A DNA stretch of 37,199 nt from Candidatus Neomarinimicrobiota bacterium (GTDB taxonomy: Bacteria; Fidelibacterota; UBA2242; B5-G15): the NCBI GenBank assembly GCA_017656425.1, contig JACDNV010000020.1:1-37199 (forward strand), written 5' to 3'. Every line of letters starts with the position of its first letter. Position 1 is the first letter of the stretch. The position numbers and the translations under genes are program-made. This document shows positions 27,146 through 37,199 of this stretch, piece after piece. A model generated the notes under the pieces. The model worked only from the letters and a program-made list of their open reading frames with translations, was not told the origin of the DNA and did no database searches.

Positions 27146-30100
27146 TTAAAATTGGACAAGTTCTTTTTCCACTTTGGGATAAATCTTATCTATTTGCTCC
27201 TGTACTTCAATTGTTTTACTTATCGCTGTGATAATACGGCAATAGCGAGGTGCATCGTCCATATTTCGTCCCCTGCGGTCTTTTAAATATTTCTGTAGTA
27301 CCTGATAACCACCAATGTGGTAGTTCCAGACTTCTGGTGTGATACCCTCGAAATATTTATCTTTGTTTATGTAAATACGTTGTTCACTCTCCTTATAAAT
27401 GACTTTTTCTATGCGATCGTTGGTACCACTACCCTGATACTTAGCAATTGGTGGATCTAGATCCGGGCTTTTGAGAAGATGCAGGTCCGCCAGCTGCTTT
27501 CCAAAGCCAGCTATTTGTTTGAATAGTTCATGACTGGCGGTAAAAGGCACGCGCGGGAAATCAATTTTTAAAAACTCAGCATAGGTTTCGCGGTAGATGT
27601 TACTGTAAAAAACACCGTAGATATAATAAAGAATCTCTTCCGGCGTAGGCTTTTGCCCATAAACCGATTGCAGTTTTTCAAAAATTTCTTCTGGGATATT
27701 TGGTTCTTTTTCGTATTGGTGTTGATTGAATATGTCCTTCTTGTTTTTATCGGGGTAAAGAAATAATGGGAATATATATGTTATTTCACTAGTCTTATTA
27801 GATACATATGAACTTTCAATTATTAATTCAGAAATTAAGCAATGTCGCCAATCTCGGCTTGCTTTAACTTGTTTTGAAATAGTCAACCCAATATTTTCTT
27901 CCAGCATGTGGCACATGACTTCGGGACGCATGCGTTCAACCAAGGCTTGATGATAAAAAATGTATCTTTCATCAAATGGGCGATATAGTATCTTTTTAAT
28001 GTATTCATTTATGTTGGTAATTTTTGATATTTCTTCTCTTACACTTTTAATTTTCCAGTTTGCTTTATTTCTTAAATTATATGCTTGTAGTATTATTTCA
28101 TCAGGTTGAGAAAGATTCTGAAATTGTAACATCCTATTTTGTAATTCCCTTTTATTATAACTGATAACAAAATTGTCCCGTGAAGTAACAATTCCAACGC
28201 TGTTTACCGGAAAAATCTCATTGATTCGTTTCCATTCTAAATATTGTTGTACTTTTTCAGTATCTCTTTTTACAAAGAAATAAAAAGGGCTTTGCGGGTT
28301 TATCTCAACATAATTTTCTTTCTTAAAGTCATTTCTCTCCAGCCATTCATATTTTTCTTCTCTCAATCCATATAAGTCCCGATGAAATACTTTTGTCTCT
28401 TTCGGCTTTTTATTCTTAATAAATAGAGCAATCGCTACACCCTGGCGAATATCAAAAACGTTTCCATCCTTGCCACCATCTGGTGTGGTTTCCTTTTTCA
28501 GGCTGTTACCGTGCAAATCGAGAATGTAAATCTCATCAAAGGTCTTCATAAGGCTCTGGCGCATACCGCGAAAAGTAGGATTATCAAGATAACTGTGATT
28601 GGTAATCATACCCACAATTCCATAGCCTGACCTCTGAATTTTCCACTGGGCAAAACGTAAAAATTTTACATAGTCATCCTGTAGCCATTTAGGATTTTTC
28701 TCGCCAAGTGGTTTACCATCGACTTTGTAATAACTCTGGGTACTATCTATATCTTCCTTGAGCAATCGTTCAGTCCATTCGTTTATATTGGCAGATATAC
28801 CGCTGTAGGGCGGATTTCCAAGAATAACCAGCACAGGCTGATCTTTTTTTACCTTACCTGCCATGTGGCTTTCTTCACTCAAAGATGAAAGTCCCGGGAT
28901 AGAGATTTGTTTGATTTCTTCCATCTCCAGTGTATTGGTCAGAAATAGATTAAAGCGCTCATCCTCAGCCATTTTATAGCCAAGTTCCTCAAAAATAAAG
29001 CCTATCTTTAAATGACCGATTGCATAAGGTGCCATCATCAGTTCAAAGGCATAATAATTTTTCAGTATATGATTCTTAATCCATGTGTGCAAACCGCCTT
29101 CGCCGTACTTTTCTTTAAATTCATTAGCAGCAAATCGTATGGCTTCGGTGGGGAAGGTGAGTGTTCCACCCGCTGGATCAAGTAGTTTCACCTCTTTGCT
29201 GGCAAGCCCATCCGCCAGATCAAAATGGGATTTCAGTATAGAATGAATAGAACGAACAATATAACTAACCACCGGTTCTGGTGTGTAATATACGCCTCGC
29301 CGCTCGCGTATTTCTGGATCATAGGTTGCCAGAAATGTTTCATAAAAATGGATGATTGGATCTTTTCCCTTACCGGTTTTATAATATTCATGCAGGATTT
29401 TGTTAACGTCGGCGACATTTAGAATTTCTGCGATATCATCAACAATAATTTGCAGGGATTTTGGTGGATCTTCAAGCGATATAAAGCGGAAAACGTCGCG
29501 TAAGATTCCAATGGTATGGGGAATAAATTCGAAAGCCAGTTTACGATTGAACTCGCCATTTGCTCTTGTTCGCGCGGCAAACAGGCCATAAGTAATGGTT
29601 TGGGCATATAAATCAGCGAATTGTTTCTTGGTTAAGGTTGCAATCAGATATTTTTTAAAGGCTTCATAAAAACCGATAATTTTTTTATGCCCTTTACTAC
29701 TCTTTTCTGACATTTCGACTGCTATCACCTCATCACGAAGGAAACGTGTTCGTTTTGCCAGCTCAATCGCAAGAGAGCGTGCAGTTTGGACTTTTGGAAG
29801 TGAGAATGAAAAGAACAGGCCAAGTAGTTTCTTGAATTTATCCGCATTTTCTAAAGGCGGTGTTTTTTGCAGTTTTTGTGCAATTACTGGACGCCCTATC
29901 ATTACCTGTTCGATAAGCTTACCATCTCTGTAAAGCCGGAATTCATAGAAGTTTGTCAAAATCACATTAGGGAAGGTAGATAAATATCGTTTTAATTGTT
30001 CTGTTCCCTCAATATAATTTAGATTTGTGACTGAAGGATCTTTGGCTTCGATGTATCCGGTGATATGGTTTTTACCGTCCCATACACGAAAATCAGGGTT

Positions 30101-30274
30101 TCCTGCCTCAGTCTTTTTAGGAATGATAGTTACATCAATGTTTTTAATATTCTGAATTTCTGCATATCGTTTGATCAACTCTTCGAGATGTTTGTAATAA
30201 CTTTCTTCACGGGCATCGCCACGATTAAAAGTTTCAGTAAGATTTTCAAGGTATCGTTCGAGTATTTCTCTCAT
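27146..30274 (-). CDS. Type IIG-like restriction-modification enzyme (PD-(D/E)XK nuclease plus N6-adenine methylase)
   Basis: A single 1042-residue polypeptide. Near the N-terminus, D61 followed by the EAK at 76-78 (NPDFRVW, then ITGYIEAKDP) fits a PD-(D/E)XK nuclease. The middle has the methylase motif I as LLDPAGGTLTFPTEA and motif IV as LGNPPYSGIS, so the family is N6-adenine DNA methylase. The last third would hold a target-recognition domain and the Type ISP C-terminal-like region. No helicase motif is seen, so it is closer to Type IIG (Eco57I-like) than to ISP, LlaGI-type enzymes. It would methylate host DNA and cut unmodified DNA with no partner subunit. An AAGGGAG site lies eleven bases before the ATG. 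The gene stands alone between the glycosidase operon and the cassette region. Confidence 0.87.
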   Translation of the reverse strand: MREILERYLENLTETFNRGDAREESYYKHLEELIKRYAEIQNIKNIDVTIIPKKTEAGNPDFRVWDGKNHITGYIEAKDPSVTNLNYIEGTEQLKRYLSTFPNVILTNFYEFRLYRDGKLIEQVMIGRPVIAQKLQKTPPLENADKFKKLLGLFFSFSLPKVQTARSLAIELAKRTRFLRDEVIAVEMSEKSSKGHKKIIGFYEAFKKYLIATLTKKQFADLYAQTITYGLFAARTRANGEFNRKLAFEFIPHTIGILRDVFRFISLEDPPKSLQIIVDDIAEILNVADVNKILHEYYKTGKGKDPIIHFYETFLATYDPEIRERRGVYYTPEPVVSYIVRSIHSILKSHFDLADGLASKEVKLLDPAGGTLTFPTEAIRFAANEFKEKYGEGGLHTWIKNHILKNYYAFELMMAPYAIGHLKIGFIFEELGYKMAEDERFNLFLTNTLEMEEIKQISIPGLSSLSEESHMAGKVKKDQPVLVILGNPPYSGISANINEWTERLLKEDIDSTQSYYKVDGKPLGEKNPKWLQDDYVKFLRFAQWKIQRSGYGIVGMITNHSYLDNPTFRGMRQSLMKTFDEIYILDLHGNSLKKETTPDGGKDGNVFDIRQGVAIALFIKNKKPKETKVFHRDLYGLREEKYEWLERNDFKKENYVEINPQSPFYFFVKRDTEKVQQYLEWKRINEIFPVNSVGIVTSRDNFVISYNKRELQNRMLQFQNLSQPDEIILQAYNLRNKANWKIKSVREEISKITNINEYIKKILYRPFDERYIFYHQALVERMRPEVMCHMLEENIGLTISKQVKASRDWRHCLISELIIESSYVSNKTSEITYIFPLFLYPDKNKKDIFNQHQYEKEPNIPEEIFEKLQSVYGQKPTPEEILYYIYGVFYSNIYRETYAEFLKIDFPRVPFTASHELFKQIAGFGKQLADLHLLKSPDLDPPIAKYQGSGTNDRIEKVIYKESEQRIYINKDKYFEGITPEVWNYHIGGYQVLQKYLKDRRGRNMDDAPRYCRIITAISKTIEVQEQIDKIYPKVEKELVQF

Positions 30275-30719: not shown

Positions 30720-31102
30720 TTACGTTTCATTTTGATACCGTTTTTCTATTAAATTCATATGGCTAATAATATTAGATTCTCTTTCTTTATTAAGTTTTCG
30801 TCTATGGTATGCAAAGAATAAACAAATAACACCTACAATCAGGGTGACATGTACTACTAACCATGCGATACAAAGTTTCGTTGAAATAACGGATCCAGTA
30901 ATGATAGCGATTAGTGTCGAAAGGCCTATACCGAGAAAGAGAAAACCTATTGAGTTATATATATATTAAGTTTTTCGGTAATGGTCTCAATATCTTTTTT
31001 TAAATTATCCCATTCTTCACATAAAATGGAATAAGCTTTACCTGACTTGGGTGGAAGAATTTTATAACCTTGTTTCACTTGAATTGAGTATTTCTCATTC
31101 AT
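30720..31102 (-). pseudogene. Frameshifted two-helix membrane protein gene
   Basis: The ATG at 31102 opens a 51-codon frame (MNEKYSIQVKQGYKILPPKS onward) that stops at 30947. In a second frame, open from the same place to a TAA at 30720, lies a clear membrane hairpin: SIGFLFLGIGLSTLIAIITG and IAWLVVHVTLIVGVICLFF, then a basic tail (YHRRKLNKERE). Removing one TA unit from the repeat at 30956-30965 joins the two frames in one protein of about 125 residues. The first frame overlaps the end of the zinc-ribbon gene by eight bases, so the two were a translationally coupled pair. The break is a mutation, an assembly error, or a switch by repeat-length change. I know no family name. Confidence 0.7.
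30956..30966. repeat. TA dinucleotide repeat at the frameshift
   Basis: Five TA units followed by T, within the coding region of the two-helix membrane protein. Loss of one unit, or an equivalent +1 change, restores the frame. Short dinucleotide tracts like this can slip during replication. Confidence 0.85.
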
Positions 31103-31361
31103 CTTTATCTACCTTTTCTTTTATAACAAAACCTGTAGTTTTAGCATTTATTAAAATAGTATTGCCGCAATTATTGCATATTACCGGAATTATAGGCATT
31201 ATTGGTGTGCCCCCTACTACCAAGCTTCCACCACGAAATTCTCTTAACTCAAAAACTCTATCTTGAACTGACCAATTTCCAACCCCACACATAGGACAGG
31301 GTCGTTTTTGCCATTTTTCATTAAGAAATTGAATGATCCTTTCCACAACATTTTTTTCCAT
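31095..31361 (-). CDS. Zinc-ribbon small protein, 88 aa, unknown function
   Basis: A strong ribosome binding site (AGGAGGTGAT then ATG) supports this gene. The protein has two CxxC knuckles, CPMC (residues 22-25) and CNNC (62-65), with the intervening VFELREFRGGSLVVGG and the following GNTILINAKTTG. This pattern, a CxxC pair around a conserved beta segment with a Gly-rich turn, is one I have the impression of seeing in unnamed small proteins, but I cannot give a family name or function. It probably binds one zinc ion. Its stop overlaps the start of the membrane-protein gene, making a pair, and 30 bases upstream lies a cassette core. Confidence 0.8.
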   Translation of the reverse strand: MEKNVVERIIQFLNEKWQKRPCPMCGVGNWSVQDRVFELREFRGGSLVVGGTPIMPIIPVICNNCGNTILINAKTTGFVIKEKVDKDE

Positions 31362-31392: not shown

Positions 31393-31572
31393 GCATAATT
31401 TGACAACCATCGATACAATGTTTTAAAAAAGCAAACTGATTAATTAAAAGAAAAAATTGCCTGAACTTTTTCATAATTTATTGTTTGATACAAACTTTGA
31501 GATAGACTAACAAGAAAACATCTTGAACTACCAATATGTAATGAATCAGTCAGTTTTATGCGCCCGTTATGC
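31393..31572 (-). other. attC-like site between protease and zinc-ribbon cassettes
   Basis: On the plus strand GCATAAT (31393-31399) and GTTATGC (31566-31572) are complementary cores, six of seven positions. Inside them GCGCATAA (31391-31398) and TTATGCGC (31556-31563) are a perfect eight-base inverted repeat, which partly overlaps the left core. The right core lies six bases after the protease stop and the left one 31 bases before the next ATG. The span of 180 bases is long but within the known range of attC sites. The interior shows no further strong pairing. Confidence 0.5.
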
Positions 31573-31578
31573 TTCAGA

Positions 31579-32418
31579 TTATTTTTCATAAGGTGGTTTC
31601 CATCGTTTTGTCAGTTCTTCCAAACTCCAAGTAATTAGTTTATGTGATAAAACCCTAACGGTTCCAGATGGTATAGGAAATAAAATATTTTGTGTTAAAT
31701 CTGATTCGTAGGTTTCACCACGTTCAGTAATTATCCCTAACAAATTACCATCCATATCAACGACAGGTCCTCCACTAGCACCTCTTGCATATGTATTATC
31801 TATCCAATATTCAGCAGCTTTTAAAGAAAACGAAATTTGTTTTTCGAAAAATTTAGTTTTAAAATTTTTAGATATAATGTGAAAAACGCCACCAATTATT
31901 CCATGTTTTACCATAATCCAGGGGATAATTGAATATGAAAATTCTTTGATTTTATTTATATTTTCTTGACCGCCAACTGCAGATTTATCTATATTTTCAG
32001 GTAAATCTAATGGTAGGCGTAAATCTTCTGAAAAACCTGCCATAATTACTTCTGTACCCTCTTTGGGGATATCTTGAGACAGTGAAATTGGAGGAACTTT
32101 GTGCGGCTTTAAAGGAGCTAATATAGCTAAGTCAATATTTAGAGGAGAAATAAATTTTTGTCCTTGGATTCCAAGGCTAATTCCACCAAATTTATAAATA
32201 CATGAAAATGCTCCACCGCCAATATACGGAATTGCTAAAATACTTTTAGATTTATCTTTTACTTGACTAGAAACGACATGATTAGCAGTTAAAATAAAAC
32301 CAGATTCATTAACTATCACACCACTACCATGTGAGTATACTTTACCAGTTTTATTATCAATTACAACTATTTTAACTAGAGACTTTTTAACAATATCAGT
32401 TACTTTAACTTTTGTCAT
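31579..32418 (-). CDS. Trypsin-like serine protease, cytoplasmic, cassette-borne
   Basis: A 279-residue protein with the complete triad of the S1/HtrA-like fold: His47 in FILTANHVVSS, Asp97 in NIDLAIL and Ser215 in GASGGPVV. No signal peptide and no membrane helix are seen, so the enzyme is probably cytoplasmic, and no PDZ domain follows. An extra segment (about 130-205, including HGIIGGVFHIISKNF) lies between the Asp and Ser. Trypsin-like proteases without a signal occur in several defence systems as associated effectors, but no partner gene is evident. The ATG has GAGGGA. Upstream at 32442-32448 is a core-like GCATAAT (plus strand), 23 bases before the ATG, marking the cassette start. Confidence 0.88.
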   Translation of the reverse strand: MTKVKVTDIVKKSLVKIVVIDNKTGKVYSHGSGVIVNESGFILTANHVVSSQVKDKSKSILAIPYIGGGAFSCIYKFGGISLGIQGQKFISPLNIDLAILAPLKPHKVPPISLSQDIPKEGTEVIMAGFSEDLRLPLDLPENIDKSAVGGQENINKIKEFSYSIIPWIMVKHGIIGGVFHIISKNFKTKFFEKQISFSLKAAEYWIDNTYARGASGGPVVDMDGNLLGIITERGETYESDLTQNILFPIPSGTVRVLSHKLITWSLEELTKRWKPPYEK

Positions 32419-32441
32419 AATTCCCTCGATTTATTATTGAA

Positions 32442-32448
32442 GCATAAT
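32442..32448 (-). other. Core-like cassette boundary, possible attI position
   Basis: GCATAAT on the plus strand is the same seven bases as the left core of the site at 31393. It lies 23 bases upstream of the protease ATG and about 160 bases beyond the 3' end of the integrase remnant. No palindromic partner is seen nearby. In a reverse-type integron (integrase and cassettes in the same direction, as in Treponema denticola) attI would be expected at about this place. Confidence 0.3.
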
Positions 32449-32607
32449 ATAATATTATTTATACTAATGCAAAAAAGAAAAAACTAATGTTCATGGCTAC
32501 CTAATAAATGTTGCCAAATAATTGTTGATTTTTTATTATTCATAAATTTAATCATGTTTTATACTTATTTTTCTTTTTGTACAAGTTGTTCGTTTTACCA
32601 ACTTAAA

Positions 32608-32877
32608 CTAAAAATCAGGAGGACTTCTTATACCTTTTCCGCTTTGATTAATCACATGAGTATACATCATAGCTGTCTCCACATTTTTATGTCCTGATAA
32701 TTCCTAAACCATTTTGACATCACAACCTGCTTTCAAAATATGGGTAACAGATGAACAACGAAAAGTATTATAACCAGCATGTCTGGTTATCCCTGCCTTT
32801 CTAACAGCTTGCTCTACTTTAATCTCTTTAAGTTGAGGTCCATGGTGGAAGTCGATTATCCGCTTTATCCAGTTCAT
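32608..32877 (-). pseudogene. intI: Integron integrase (IntI) C-terminal remnant
   Basis: Reading from 32877 to the TAG at 32608 gives a tyrosine-recombinase C-terminal domain: FHHGPQLKEIKVEQAVRKAG, YNTFRCSSVTHILKAGCDVK, then a TAG at 32704-32706 where the family has Gln (VQELLGH), then [20 protein letters not shown] and [10 protein letters not shown]. The ending [14 protein letters not shown] plus GIRSP is the integron integrase signature, set apart from other tyrosine recombinases by this tail. Arg is kept in the RHSFATHLL-like box, but the following His is Cys, the preceding His is Asn, and the N-terminal domains are absent or too decayed to read. Active GH and Tyr residues remain. Upstream frames to about 33000 contain no recognisable integrase text. 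Confidence 0.85.
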
Positions 32878-33111
32878 TTAAGCCTCTTCCATACGAATGC
32901 TGTAATTCTATAGCTAAATCGTCTGGTGGACTTGATCGAAAAACCTGCAGAAGTGGCTCGGAACTTTGATAAAGGGTCACTTGTTTTTATGAAAGCAATT
33001 TCCTTCACCAAATACTTTCTAGTTTACATAACAATGTTGCAATAAATACTAAAAAACAATTTCATTTTTGTCAATACCCAATTTAAGAAATTTGCACATC
33101 CACAGGCAGCC

Positions 33112-33212: not shown

Positions 33213-33548
33213 CTAAACATAAATTACTGTTCTTTCAATTTAATCAGCAATTTGTTTATTTCTTATCGCATCAATTACTGCTGGTGTAAAATATCAGTTT
33301 TTTATCAAATAACTGTTCAAACTCAGTTATTATATCAACATCACTATTTTCATCAGGACCTCCAACAGAATATGATCCAAAAATACCAATCATACGGATA
33401 ACAAATTCAGAATCGTGATAAGTTAATTTCTCTCTTAATATTATCTGAATATTTCCACAACCAATTCTATTACTACTTGTTTTTATTTTATTGTTTTCCG
33501 CACCATTGTTTTTTTTAATGTTATATGAATAAATAATTGTTTATCCAT
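33213..33548 (-). pseudogene. Broken MNT-type nucleotidyltransferase gene
   Basis: From an ATG at 33548 to a TAG at 33213 the minus strand carries a minimal nucleotidyltransferase in several frames. The central part reads ILREKLTYHDSEFVIRMIGI, FGSYSVGGPDENSDVDIITE, the GSY and DxD pattern that binds metal and nucleotide, then FEQLFDKK. A frame change leads to FTPAVIDAIRNKQIAD, a stop, and IERTVIYV, the usual tail. The N-terminal part is in a third frame with its own stop. MNT proteins are commonly antitoxins of HEPN toxins, transferring AMP to them; no HEPN gene is next to it. The lesions show that the gene is dead. Confidence 0.75.
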
Positions 33549-33576
33549 TTTGATCTTGTCCAATTTTATTTTTTAA

Positions 33577-33647
33577 ACTTAACTCTAAATAGTCTGCCGA
33601 GTGTAATTTATAGAATTCCTTGATTCCCTTTTTATTCGCTGTTATAC
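33577..33647 (-). other. attC-like site downstream of methyltransferase gene
   Basis: On the minus strand GTATAAC (plus strand GTTATAC, 33641-33647) lies 14 bases past the stop of the methyltransferase gene, and GTTAAGT (plus strand ACTTAAC, 33577-33583; exact GTTRRRY consensus) lies 28 bases before the ATG of the broken MNT gene. The two arms are AT-rich and pair only weakly, so the ends look right but the palindrome is poor. Confidence 0.5.
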
Positions 33648-33661
33648 GCTGAGGCAACTGC

Positions 33662-34348
33662 CTATTTTTTAATTTTAATCATTTCGTTTCCACCCCGCAT
33701 AAATTCATAGGGTACTTTCATTATCTCTAAATCATTAACTTTATTAATTAAACTGTCAATAATTTTATCAACAAATAACGATTTCTTACCATTAAGTCCG
33801 ATCAAGGGAAATATTCTAATTTCCCTGGATATCCTCAGCATTTCTTTAATAGAATCTTCATGAAACTCATAACTCAATCTATCATCATATAGAAAAAGGA
33901 AATGGGACGATAAAACCAGGGAGAATTCATCATCTTTAAAAGGAAGTTTGGGAAGTTTGGATTTGATATATTTATTACCTCTCTCATTCCGGTAGTGATT
34001 AATAAACGCCTTATATGTAGCCTTGCGATGTTTTATTAATTCGCCAGGGGTTTTGAAATAATTCCAAACATACATATCTTCGATTCCAAAAAGTGTCTGC
34101 ATAACATTTGAAAGATCATTCTCACATTTCGCCTCAAGAACATCAGGGTCGATATCATAAAGAACATCGGTAGCGATAACATCGTATCCCTTTTTCGATA
34201 ATTCAGCTGTAAAAGAAGATGCTCCAGATGCACAATCTAATATTTTATTATTCTTCAGGTAATCCAAGGATAAGTCAAACATTTTCATGTACTCGTCGTA
34301 GCTCCGACCCACAAATACTATCTTGTCTATGTTAAATTTCTTTTCCAT
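33662..34348 (-). CDS. SAM-dependent class I methyltransferase, cassette-borne
   Basis: A 228-residue protein with the Rossmann-type SAM-binding motif ILDCASGASSFTAEL (residues 36-50) and a following acidic turn (KGYDVIATDVLYD). The segment LPFKDDEFSLVLSSHFLFLY is the usual motif IV/V region. The target cannot be told; the family includes many small-molecule and some protein methyltransferases. A cassette core (GTTATAC, minus strand) lies 25 bases upstream of the ATG, and no strong Shine-Dalgarno is seen, only GAAGTG. It neighbours a second, unrelated methyltransferase cassette. Confidence 0.82.
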   Translation of the reverse strand: MEKKFNIDKIVFVGRSYDEYMKMFDLSLDYLKNNKILDCASGASSFTAELSKKGYDVIATDVLYDIDPDVLEAKCENDLSNVMQTLFGIEDMYVWNYFKTPGELIKHRKATYKAFINHYRNERGNKYIKSKLPKLPFKDDEFSLVLSSHFLFLYDDRLSYEFHEDSIKEMLRISREIRIFPLIGLNGKKSLFVDKIIDSLINKVNDLEIMKVPYEFMRGGNEMIKIKK

Positions 34349-34373
34349 TTTAATTCACTTCTATTTCCTTTGC

Positions 34374-34463
34374 GTATAACGTTTTGGGGATATGTGAATT
34401 CCCAACGATAGTTGGGATTTGGACAAGAGTAAACAAGCCACATATCCTCCTACTAAGTAATCC
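34374..34463 (-). other. attC site A
   Basis: On the plus strand GTATAACGTTTTGGGGATATGTG (first core GTATAAC, 34374-34380) is matched by CCACATATCC (34438-34447) and a degenerate second core GTAATCC (34457-34463, one base from GTTATCC). The arms GGATATGTG and CACATATCC pair perfectly. A tip hairpin CCCAAC-GATA-GTTGGG (34401-34416) is perfect. It stands between the two methyltransferase genes, 71 bases past the stop of one and 25 before the ATG of the other. Confidence 0.7.
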
Positions 34464-35266: not shown

Positions 35267-35350
35267 GGACAACGTTCGGGGGTATGCAAAGTCCCGCTTT
35301 GTGGGATTTGGGCGTAACCGAGTGCGAAGCTACATATCCCCCTGTTGTCC
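35267..35350 (-). other. attC site B (best preserved)
   Basis: An 84-base imperfect palindrome. On the plus strand the outer cores GGACAAC (35267-35273) and GTTGTCC (35344-35350) are perfectly complementary. The inner arms GGGGGTATG and CATATCCCCC pair with one extra base in the right-hand arm, the extrahelical base by which integron integrases sense strand polarity; it places the site in minus-strand orientation, like the genes. The interior has a further hairpin TCCCGCTTTGTGGGA. Next to the right core, CCGAGTGCGAA occurs twice (about 35318 and 35349). Confidence 0.85.
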
Positions 35351-35397: not shown

Positions 35398-36408
35398 TCA
35401 CTCTTCCTCTTTTCGTTTATTCAGTTCTTCTAATACGCTTTTTACCAAATCTTTGTAATATTCTACTAATCTATAGTTTTCCTTTTCCCAAGGTTTTGAT
35501 GGGTCCTTTTCATATTGAATAATCTGCCTTAAATAATCTCTTTTAGCAATTCCGATCTCTCTAGAAATGGTCGTCAATATAATACCTGCCTGTCTGTCAT
35601 CTCTGGCTTCTCCTCTTTTAAGTAATTCTTTTTTAATCACTTCTCTATTTATAACTTCGTGTTTTAAACACAGAGGAAGCAATATTTCCCTTATACGACG
35701 GGGAGTAGTTCTAGCTTCTGATAAATAGTTAGTCAGCAGATCTCTAAGTTCATTTTCATTGTATTTTCCAGGTTCATCGGACATTAAAATTTTAAATTGC
35801 CTTTTTCTAGTTCTTTCTTTCTCGACCTCTTCTGGTATTATTACTGTTCGAGCAATAAGCTCTTCACCGTTCCTTGTTCTCACATATTTCAAAATGACTG
35901 CATTGATACTAACTCCATAATTATTTGAGAGCCATTCAATCATTCTTTGTAATGACTCCTCAATCGAAAAACCAACAAGGAGAATTCTCTGAGTTTTATT
36001 AATGGTTAAATCTTCTAGATCAATTTCTTCAAATTTCTCACTTAAGTAGTCTTCCAAACTTTGGTTAGTGTACTTGATACATATTTCGCTGAGCTTATCA
36101 ACATCCCATGAAGAAACATCTGAAGCATAATCAATGGCTTGAGTTAGTACATCTCTTGGGAGTTTATCTCTTTTCAATTCGACTACAACAAGATTTCCTG
36201 ATTTATCTATACCAAGAAAATCCATTGATCCTGATTTTGTTGGCACCTGCTCCCCTATAATCAATATATCTTCTCCAAGTATTTGGGGATTGCTTTTAAT
36301 CCATTTCTCCAGGTCCTCTGTTTCTTTTCGTCCTGCTTCAACCATTGTCATCTCAATAGGCTCCAATTTACCGTTAATAATTTGCCATACTTTTATTTCT
36401 GTTGCCAT
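35398..36408 (-). CDS. NucS/DUF91-like PD-(D/E)XK nuclease, cassette-borne
   Basis: A 336-residue protein. The N-terminal half has the endonuclease NucS-like core: KETEDLEKWIKSNPQIL (28-44), then SMDFLGIDKSGNLVVVELKR (61-80), giving D63 and the ExK at E77-K79, the metal and catalytic residues of the PD-(D/E)XK fold. VLTQAIDYASDVSSW follows as in DUF91 proteins. The C-terminal third is basic and charged, perhaps for DNA binding. Relatives act on mismatches, branched or modified DNA, or as restriction-type effectors; the substrate here is open. The ATG is preceded by GGAGGT at seven bases. Confidence 0.85.
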   Translation of the reverse strand: MATEIKVWQIINGKLEPIEMTMVEAGRKETEDLEKWIKSNPQILGEDILIIGEQVPTKSGSMDFLGIDKSGNLVVVELKRDKLPRDVLTQAIDYASDVSSWDVDKLSEICIKYTNQSLEDYLSEKFEEIDLEDLTINKTQRILLVGFSIEESLQRMIEWLSNNYGVSINAVILKYVRTRNGEELIARTVIIPEEVEKERTRKRQFKILMSDEPGKYNENELRDLLTNYLSEARTTPRRIREILLPLCLKHEVINREVIKKELLKRGEARDDRQAGIILTTISREIGIAKRDYLRQIIQYEKDPSKPWEKENYRLVEYYKDLVKSVLEELNKRKEEE

Positions 36409-36446: not shown

Positions 36447-36526
36447 GGATAGCGTTTCGGGCATACGAAGTTCGACTTTGCCGATTTTGTGCAAAGCGAA
36501 GAGCAGCCGTATGTCCGCTGTTAGGC
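36447..36526 (-). other. attC site C
   Basis: An 80-base imperfect palindrome. On the minus strand it starts with GCCTAAC (exact RYYYAAC; 36520-36526) and ends with GCTATCC (36447-36453, a one-base change from GTTATCC). The arms GGACATACG and CGTATGCCC pair with one mismatch. A tip hairpin CTTTGC/GCAAAG (36476-36481 and 36491-36496) is perfect. It begins 19 bases after the stop of the 152-residue gene and ends 38 bases before the next ATG. Confidence 0.8.
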
Positions 36527-37043: not shown

Positions 37044-37138
37044 GTATGACGTTCCCAGCGTATACGACGTTGCGACCAAAGGGATCAATGTCCCGAAGGG
37101 CAAGGGCGTAATCCCGCAGCGTATATGCTGTGTTATCT
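37044..37138 (-). other. attC site D
   Basis: A 95-base imperfect palindrome. On the minus strand the proximal core is AGATAAC (37132-37138) and the distal core GTCATAC (37044-37050, a one-base change from GTTATAC). The arms CACAGCATATACG and CGTATACGCTGGG pair with two mismatches, and GGGAT/ATCCC (37081-37085 and 37111-37115) forms an inner stem. It lies 39 bases before the ATG of the 152-residue gene. Confidence 0.75.
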
Positions 37139-37154: not shown

Positions 37155-37199
37155 TCAAATTAACCATGTTTTGACTAACGTCCATATTCCTAATAGAGT
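37155..37199 (-). CDS. Possible 3' end of the next cassette gene (partial)
   Basis: The frame entering from the right edge reads TLLGIWTLVKTWLI and stops at 37155, 16 bases before the proximal core of attC site D, as expected for a cassette gene. The hydrophobic end suggests a membrane protein. The stretch is too short for any firm call. Confidence 0.3.
   Translation of the reverse strand, partial: TLLGIWTLVKTWLI

Follow-up and report, generated by a model that had tools for sequence, protein, structure and literature searches.

A short stretch of a 37,199-base contig carries the tail of an integron integrase (IntI), and cassettes had been noted at both sides of it. This raises two questions, whether the stretch is a dead intI gene and, if so, which of the neighbouring cassettes belonged to it. 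The window, i.e. the whole stretch of DNA analysed here, is contig C20 (37199 b) of genome G000, an assembly of 2.80 Mb in 50 contigs.

The fragment 32608-32877 (minus strand) matched the integron integrase model TIGR02249 with 77.1 bits (E 1.5e-21, model positions 235-312 of 315). The XerD and XerC models reached 47.7 and 46.1 bits. The relic ends with the tail GIRSPPD, and about 70 bases upstream of 32877 encode an IntI N-terminus (DQVHQTI*L*NYSIRMEEA*MNWIKRIIDFHH) that aligned with a score of 101, the best of 2000 shuffles reaching 45. A XerC/D or phage integrase would share the tyrosine-recombinase fold (PF00589); with the IntI model some 30 bits ahead of both Xer models, this tail and this N-terminus, such a descent is hardly conceivable. 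Judged by its sequence, the fragment at 32608-32946 is a genuine, dead integron integrase. A sequence-only reading had proposed just this, and the best match was indeed to IntI and neither to XerC/D nor to a phage enzyme. The reading had also pointed to a TAG in place of Gln and an altered box II. Both are present: the TAG stands where relatives carry Gln, and HTFRHS has become NTFRCS, i.e. the catalytic HxxR reads NxxR. The relic has several stops, box I is deleted, and neither the catalytic set nor the open frame is intact. Because the N-terminus is still readable upstream of the C-terminus, what has been deleted from this intI is internal. Roughly 190 residues are gone, among them the region of the IntI additional domain, and both ends lie in one frame. 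In an IntI tree, a placement which had been suggested, the nearest sequences were L040, L047 and L039, yet without statistical support.

In a profile search of the G000 contigs no intact IntI passed the family cut-off. Two tyrosine recombinases of this genome are intact (C5, C10); they are of the Xer type and have no SPxD tail. Remnants only, at C8 and C18, were found of rec2, a shorter recombinase described below. With no intact IntI and rec2 as remnants, no functional integron was recognised in G000. Other intI relics are located on C34 and at the start of C19. In the former (L016, 3204-3560) the N-terminus is joined straight to the last residues, and the tail passes into the attI flank at a short sequence common to both, ATGTGATTAA, which looks like the outcome of a microhomology deletion. 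The latter (L013, 1-900) comprises residues about 47-147 and is followed by a possible attI, TATTATGTTAGGTG; the intI remnant was clear, but the attI homology was unsupported by alignment. The first 55 bases of C19 are also found at the end of C22, which indicates a repeat boundary. Joining C34 and C20 into one array was rejected because their ends do not overlap.

Table 1. Features of the integron region of the window, listed in minus-strand reading direction.
Feature	Position	Strand	Remarks
Possible attC, weak	37044..37138	-	17.9 bits, E 0.07
Cassette ORF, 152 aa	36546..37004	-	no family match
R2-family attC	36447..36526	-	64.8 bits (site itself in model); fold z -2.7
Cassette ORF, 336 aa, NucS-like nuclease domain	35398..36408	-	PADLOC PDC-S11 candidate defence protein
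R2-family attC, best preserved	35267..35350	-	80.7 bits; fold z -4.2; 80-82% copies at C18, C1
Cassette ORF, UbiE-like methyltransferase, 232 aa	34535..35233	-	domain search
R2-family attC	34374..34458	-	68.9 bits; hairpin fold
Cassette with methyltransferase ORF (33662-34348)	33642..34379	-	boundary match
Decayed attC, homologous to G000 C18 attCs	33570..33650	-	alignment score 70 vs shuffled maximum 44
Broken nucleotidyltransferase-like ORF between right array and intI	33250..33540	-	PF01909 22 bits; rough multi-frame reading
intI pseudogene	32608..32946	-	N-terminal piece (to about 32842) and C-terminal piece joined in frame
Relic attI, IntI-type platform	32446..32554	-	75-78% to C34 and C6 copies
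First cassette after relic attI	31566..32447	-	trypsin-like peptidase CDS 31579-32418, PF13365 E 4.9e-13
Small ORF, 88 aa, CxxC pairs	31095..31361	-	possibly second cassette; no attC recognised

A relic attI lies some 160 nt past the stop of intI. It aligned to the C6 copy at 81% (E 1.6e-17), and its crossover triplet GTT is decayed to ATT at 32448-32446. Homologues follow the C34 relic on its 3' side, stand on C6 at a site without intI, and flank a truncated intI of the closed genome G036, again on the 3' side. Of 245 genomes of the phylum that were searched, 8 were listed with this attI family, and 11 copies in 7 genomes were accepted; L188 (G201) was judged a chance match and was excluded from the 11. 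Dead intI genes were identified by tblastn or profile search beside the copies in the window, C34, G036 and G050, and in G006 a SPADF* tail was seen by eye in the alignment. No copy of the family has an intact intI beside it; upstream stands an intI remnant or nothing. The homology of the 11 copies stops at the GTT crossover (G/TT) and each copy then continues differently. This is what is expected of an attI with different first cassettes. The element is palindromic, has the size of an attC, and its ends, AACATA...TATGTT, look like attC boxes. Might it be an attC, and intI itself have been carried as a cassette? Conservation is stronger in the 3' half than in the diverging 5' half, and by eye no compensating changes connect the arms, which favours a double-stranded attI over an attC. 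Moreover, the element recurs 3' of intI remnants across genomes with unrelated sequence after each, and in intact IntI relatives it is an attI that occupies this position. We consider an attC very improbable and treat the element as attI.

In the 3' half all 11 copies (e.g. L171 3660-3750) contain a promoter-like pair, TTGCTT and TAATYT separated by 16-17 nt, directed toward the cassettes. It could be a cassette promoter, and this could explain the conservation after the death of intI. On C6 (L171 3636-6096, 48.6-51.1 kb of the contig) the attI is followed by at least three cassettes with attCs and there is no trace of intI; integron finders would miss this orphan platform. The attI pattern was not found in viral contigs, and the window region had no match in plasmid records. 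attI sites other than that of class 1 are poorly described (PMC9024848), and the family provides a means of detecting dead platforms once intI is lost.

In the window the dead intI, the attI (32554-32446) and a cassette (32447-31566) thus follow one another in the same direction, with attI 3' of intI. We examined whether relatives with intact intI share this order. In the nearest ones (L039, L040, L047) and in L049 an attI-like site was located 147-190 nt 3' of intI, in the intact relatives overall 147-248 nt 3' of the intI stop. L047 and L049 have attCs downstream of intI, on its strand, and L044 too has them downstream. L051, a relative from the phylum, has a layout which looks standard. In 80 named loci, attC matches downstream of intI were on its strand and those upstream were on the opposite one. 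Judged by attC position (L061-L138), single loci with the reverse layout were from Omnitrophota, Actinomycetota, Acidobacteria, Planctomycetia, Synechococcus and Spirochaetes. In the IntI tree the orientation switches only three times in 47 labelled rows, the labels of some relatives being attI positions judged by eye. The assignment of the left part (32.95 to about 31.57 kb) as a dead reverse (inverted) integron is supported by the attI 3' of intI, by the peptidase as first cassette and by the same layout in the nearest intact relatives. The sequence-only reading had let intI point in the direction of the cassettes that follow. The relic attI 3' of the dead gene, the homologous attIs 3' of other intI remnants and the relatives with intact intI all bear this out. 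It had further likened the locus to the reverse integrons of spirochaetes; the likeness holds, the tie to spirochaetes does not, as the layout is found in several other phyla too. A living IntI would have recombined attI with the attC of a circular cassette, the latter as folded bottom strand, and new cassettes would thereby have been placed directly downstream of intI itself. The gene was lost by internal deletion and stops, leaving attI and the peptidase cassette.

The peptidase cassette begins with ATTATGCTTC, and an R''-like box at 31575-31566, GAAGCATAAC, is the reverse complement of this start (9/10). This match was equalled in 50/200 shuffles of the 3.3 kb scanned and is weak alone; it speaks for the cassette only when combined with the location just past the stop codon. 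No sound attC was found left of the peptidase cassette by an attC model scan and hairpin folding. Of the cassettes that had been claimed for both sides of intI, those at right were confirmed by three attCs of 65-81 bits and a decayed fourth; at left there is one bounded cassette, and none was established towards 30.7 kb. The integron region is adjoined at left, on the same strand, by a gene for a type ISP/IIG restriction enzyme-methyltransferase (27146-30274, 1042 aa, PF18135, PADLOC REase_MTase_IIG).

Do the cassettes at right belong to the same system? A plain attC pattern (RYYYAAC...GTTRRRY) missed most sites of the window because of their unusual outer boxes, and a covariance model derived from other integrons (R1) missed the sites of the right array. 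As both failed, a separate model, R2, was built. It was trained on sites of G000, including those of the window, and of its nearest relatives; the R2 scores of the window sites are therefore partly circular. The contigs are draft, and several site calls were made by eye. Covariation in the R2 model was 0.323 compared with 0.154 in shuffles, and paired cells amounted to 84.9% compared with at most 39% when slid. G000 has 23 R2 sites in strand-consistent clusters on C1, C6, C8, C18, C19 and C20. The IntI-type platforms, C34 and the attI-proximal part of C6, carry R1-type attCs; on C6 two weaker R2 sites are located at least 3.5 kb further along. In the right array three strong attCs lie within 34.4-36.5 kb. 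In the methyltransferase cassette 9 nt of the start, GTTATACGC, and of the end, GCGTATAAC, are perfectly reverse complementary; 9 of 10 tested bases match at the boundary, and 4/200 shuffles were equal. Between 33.1 and 33.6 kb a decayed R2-like attC and a broken nucleotidyltransferase ORF lead over to the intI relic. Its folded and covarying attCs identify the right part (33.6-37.2 kb) as a genuine array of cassettes, with attCs of a family different from those of the IntI platforms. The guess that the right part is of separate origin is supported, on firmer ground than the sequence-only reading had, by this different attC family and by its tie to another class of recombinase.

This recombinase, rec2, is a tyrosine recombinase of about 275 aa in relatives, with the catalytic residues kept. 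Its match to TIGR02249 is split in two and skips positions 180-238, with scores of 244 and 235 bits, the cut-off being 265. The XerA model NF040815, which has the NCBI name 'site-specific tyrosine recombinase/integron integrase', fits over the whole length. Compared with solved structures (PDB 4a8e, 5hxy, 2a3v), rec2 matched XerA (4a8e) in one stretch with 192.2 bits and VchIntIA (2a3v) comparably, in two stretches with 192.6 bits. In contrast to IntI, rec2 has no additional domain. In contrast to the two Xer proteins of G000 it has the IntI-like tail, [S/N]PxD, in 17/20 sequences (one of these xPxE). In the tree IntI forms one clade (100), arising beside three rec2 groups of unsettled order. 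In two of these three groups the gene is followed by inverted repeats (AAACGCCATATGGCGTATATACA and similar) in a 3' flank which ends ..ACGTTRNGC or similar. This attI-like site is located 66-116 nt downstream of the rec2 stop codon, and several rec2 contigs end exactly at its GTT. Members of a third subclade (L228, L235, L239, L240) have neither an attI-like flank nor cassettes and may do another job.

Genome-level co-occurrence across the phylum did not separate rec2 or R2 attCs well from the presence of IntI. Therefore, same-contig adjacency and a boundary test were used. On C8 and C18 of G000 the R2 clusters begin just 3' of the rec2 remnants. In 3 genomes R2 sites are present on the rec2 contig, the downstream ones within about 2.2 kb and on the same strand; G016 has one further R2 site upstream of rec2. 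No R2 site was found at 20 IntI loci and no R1 site at 20 rec2 loci, although R1 matches IntI loci. As most relatives' contigs stop just after the integrase, many of the IntI contigs among them, these negative counts are weak. For the boundary test 8 rec2 attI-like sites with at least 1 kb downstream were available. The nine bases from GTT were matched by a reverse complement ending in AAC at 9/9 in 6/8 sites and at 8/9 in the other two. Of 608 GTTR control positions 6 (1%) reached 9/9 and 98 reached 8/9, so the two 8/9 sites carry little weight. An attC hairpin followed the boundary match at most of the 8 sites, at L229 as three cassettes in a row; for L241 and L233 the combined score did not stand out. 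On C8 and C18 the boundary matched with 8/9 and 9/9, respectively, both with attC hairpins. These data demonstrate an order of rec2, attI-like site and cassettes with structured attCs.

Could the R2 sites instead be REP-like palindromic repeats, and rec2 an ordinary Xer or mobile-element recombinase close to chance palindromes? Dispersed palindromes are common in bacterial genomes, NCBIfam best names rec2 XerA-like, and the subclade devoid of attI-like flanks would fit. REP repeats, however, predict neither AAC/GTT ends with compensatory changes, nor cassettes whose start and end match completely at six sites and which form chains of up to three, nor contig ends placed precisely at the attI-like GTT. 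Such repeats are an unlikely explanation, and we retain R2 sites as attCs and rec2 as the recombinase heading them.

A recombinase encoded before tet(X3) on Acinetobacter plasmids ('xerD'/tnpF; L259, NZ_CP041297.1 5001-5900; also L260, L261) is 62.6% identical to rec2. Between this gene and tet(X3) lie 190 nt with an attI-like motif, TATACGCCATTTGGCGTATAGCCACTTGTTATGTGC, at their end, roughly 18 nt ahead of the start of tet(X3). It is possible that tet(X3) was formerly acquired by a rec2-type system as its first cassette. A clear match for its far cassette boundary was not found at L259-L261. The neighbourhood of tet(X3) itself is already known (PMC8635130).

With an IntI platform at left and an R2 array of another family at right, the window probably is the place where two dead integron systems, each of its own class, meet end to end on the minus strand: a reverse IntI integron and a rec2-type array. 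The window contains no rec2 remnant and ends inside the right array at 37199, hence the integrase of this array is assigned by its attC family. Its head, rec2 with the attI-like site, would be located beyond the contig end; heads of this kind are seen as remnants at C8 and C18 of G000. The right system (33.6 to past 37.2 kb) with at least four cassettes was presumably built by rec2, which may insert cassettes at an attI-like site of its own, in the manner of IntI; a rearrangement could have brought the two systems together. Might it all have been a single integron, both cassette sets forming one array into which the intI-attI piece was inserted or moved by rearrangement? Both sides are contiguous and share one strand, and G000 is rich in rearranged integron pieces, with relic platforms on several contigs. 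Yet the right attCs are R2-type as opposed to the R1-type at the IntI platforms C34 and C6, and the relic attI is in place between intI and the first cassette. A single integron appears rather unlikely, and two adjoining systems are the preferred reading.

The IntI additional domain is held to permit action on folded single-stranded attC, and an origin of integrons from a Xer-like ancestor that gained this domain has been proposed (Escudero 2016, PMC4792948, where Messier and Roy 2001 is cited). rec2 could be a lineage from before the gain of the domain or one that lost it. We put forward, at even chances of being right or wrong, a second integron class with an IntI-related recombinase devoid of the additional domain, its own attI and structured attCs; it would be a living sister of classical integrons, or their ancestral form, and would include part of the arrays filed as integrase-less, and the window would show a dead classical platform abutting such an array. 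If rec2 does head attC arrays without the additional domain, the proposed origin of integrons becomes directly testable. If the proposal is true, domain-based integrase searches overlook a class of integrons. A dead IntI machine next to an array of apparently a second type of machine may help to show how integrons evolved. In the open-access papers searched, no account was found of attC arrays whose leading recombinase lacks the additional domain.

Reverse integrons, intI pseudogenes and CALINs are already known (PMC3607928, PMC9668308, PMC2426708, PMC9024848). Inverted-integrase chromosomal integrons occur e.g. in Treponema (Wu 2013, PMC3607928; Ghaly 2022, PMC9668308; the group is named in PMC10500605). 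Like these, the left part of the window has intI, attI and cassettes in one direction with attI 3' of intI; unlike them, its intI is dead, and the layout occurs also outside Spirochaetes, including the host phylum. About one third of intI genes are pseudogenes, giving 'pseudo-integrons' (Nemergut 2008, PMC2426708). Decay by stops and deletion which leaves the platform is shared with the window; different is that the attI family here outlives intI at several loci, on C6 without any intI remnant. CALINs are clusters of attC lacking an integrase (IntegronFinder, PMC9024848). With at least two clustered attCs and no IntI of its own the right array would receive that name. In contrast to a CALIN, it probably belongs to a short integrase of the Xer type, which remains below the TIGR02249 cut-off; by missing this cut-off, rec2 would make the arrays it heads look orphaned without being so.
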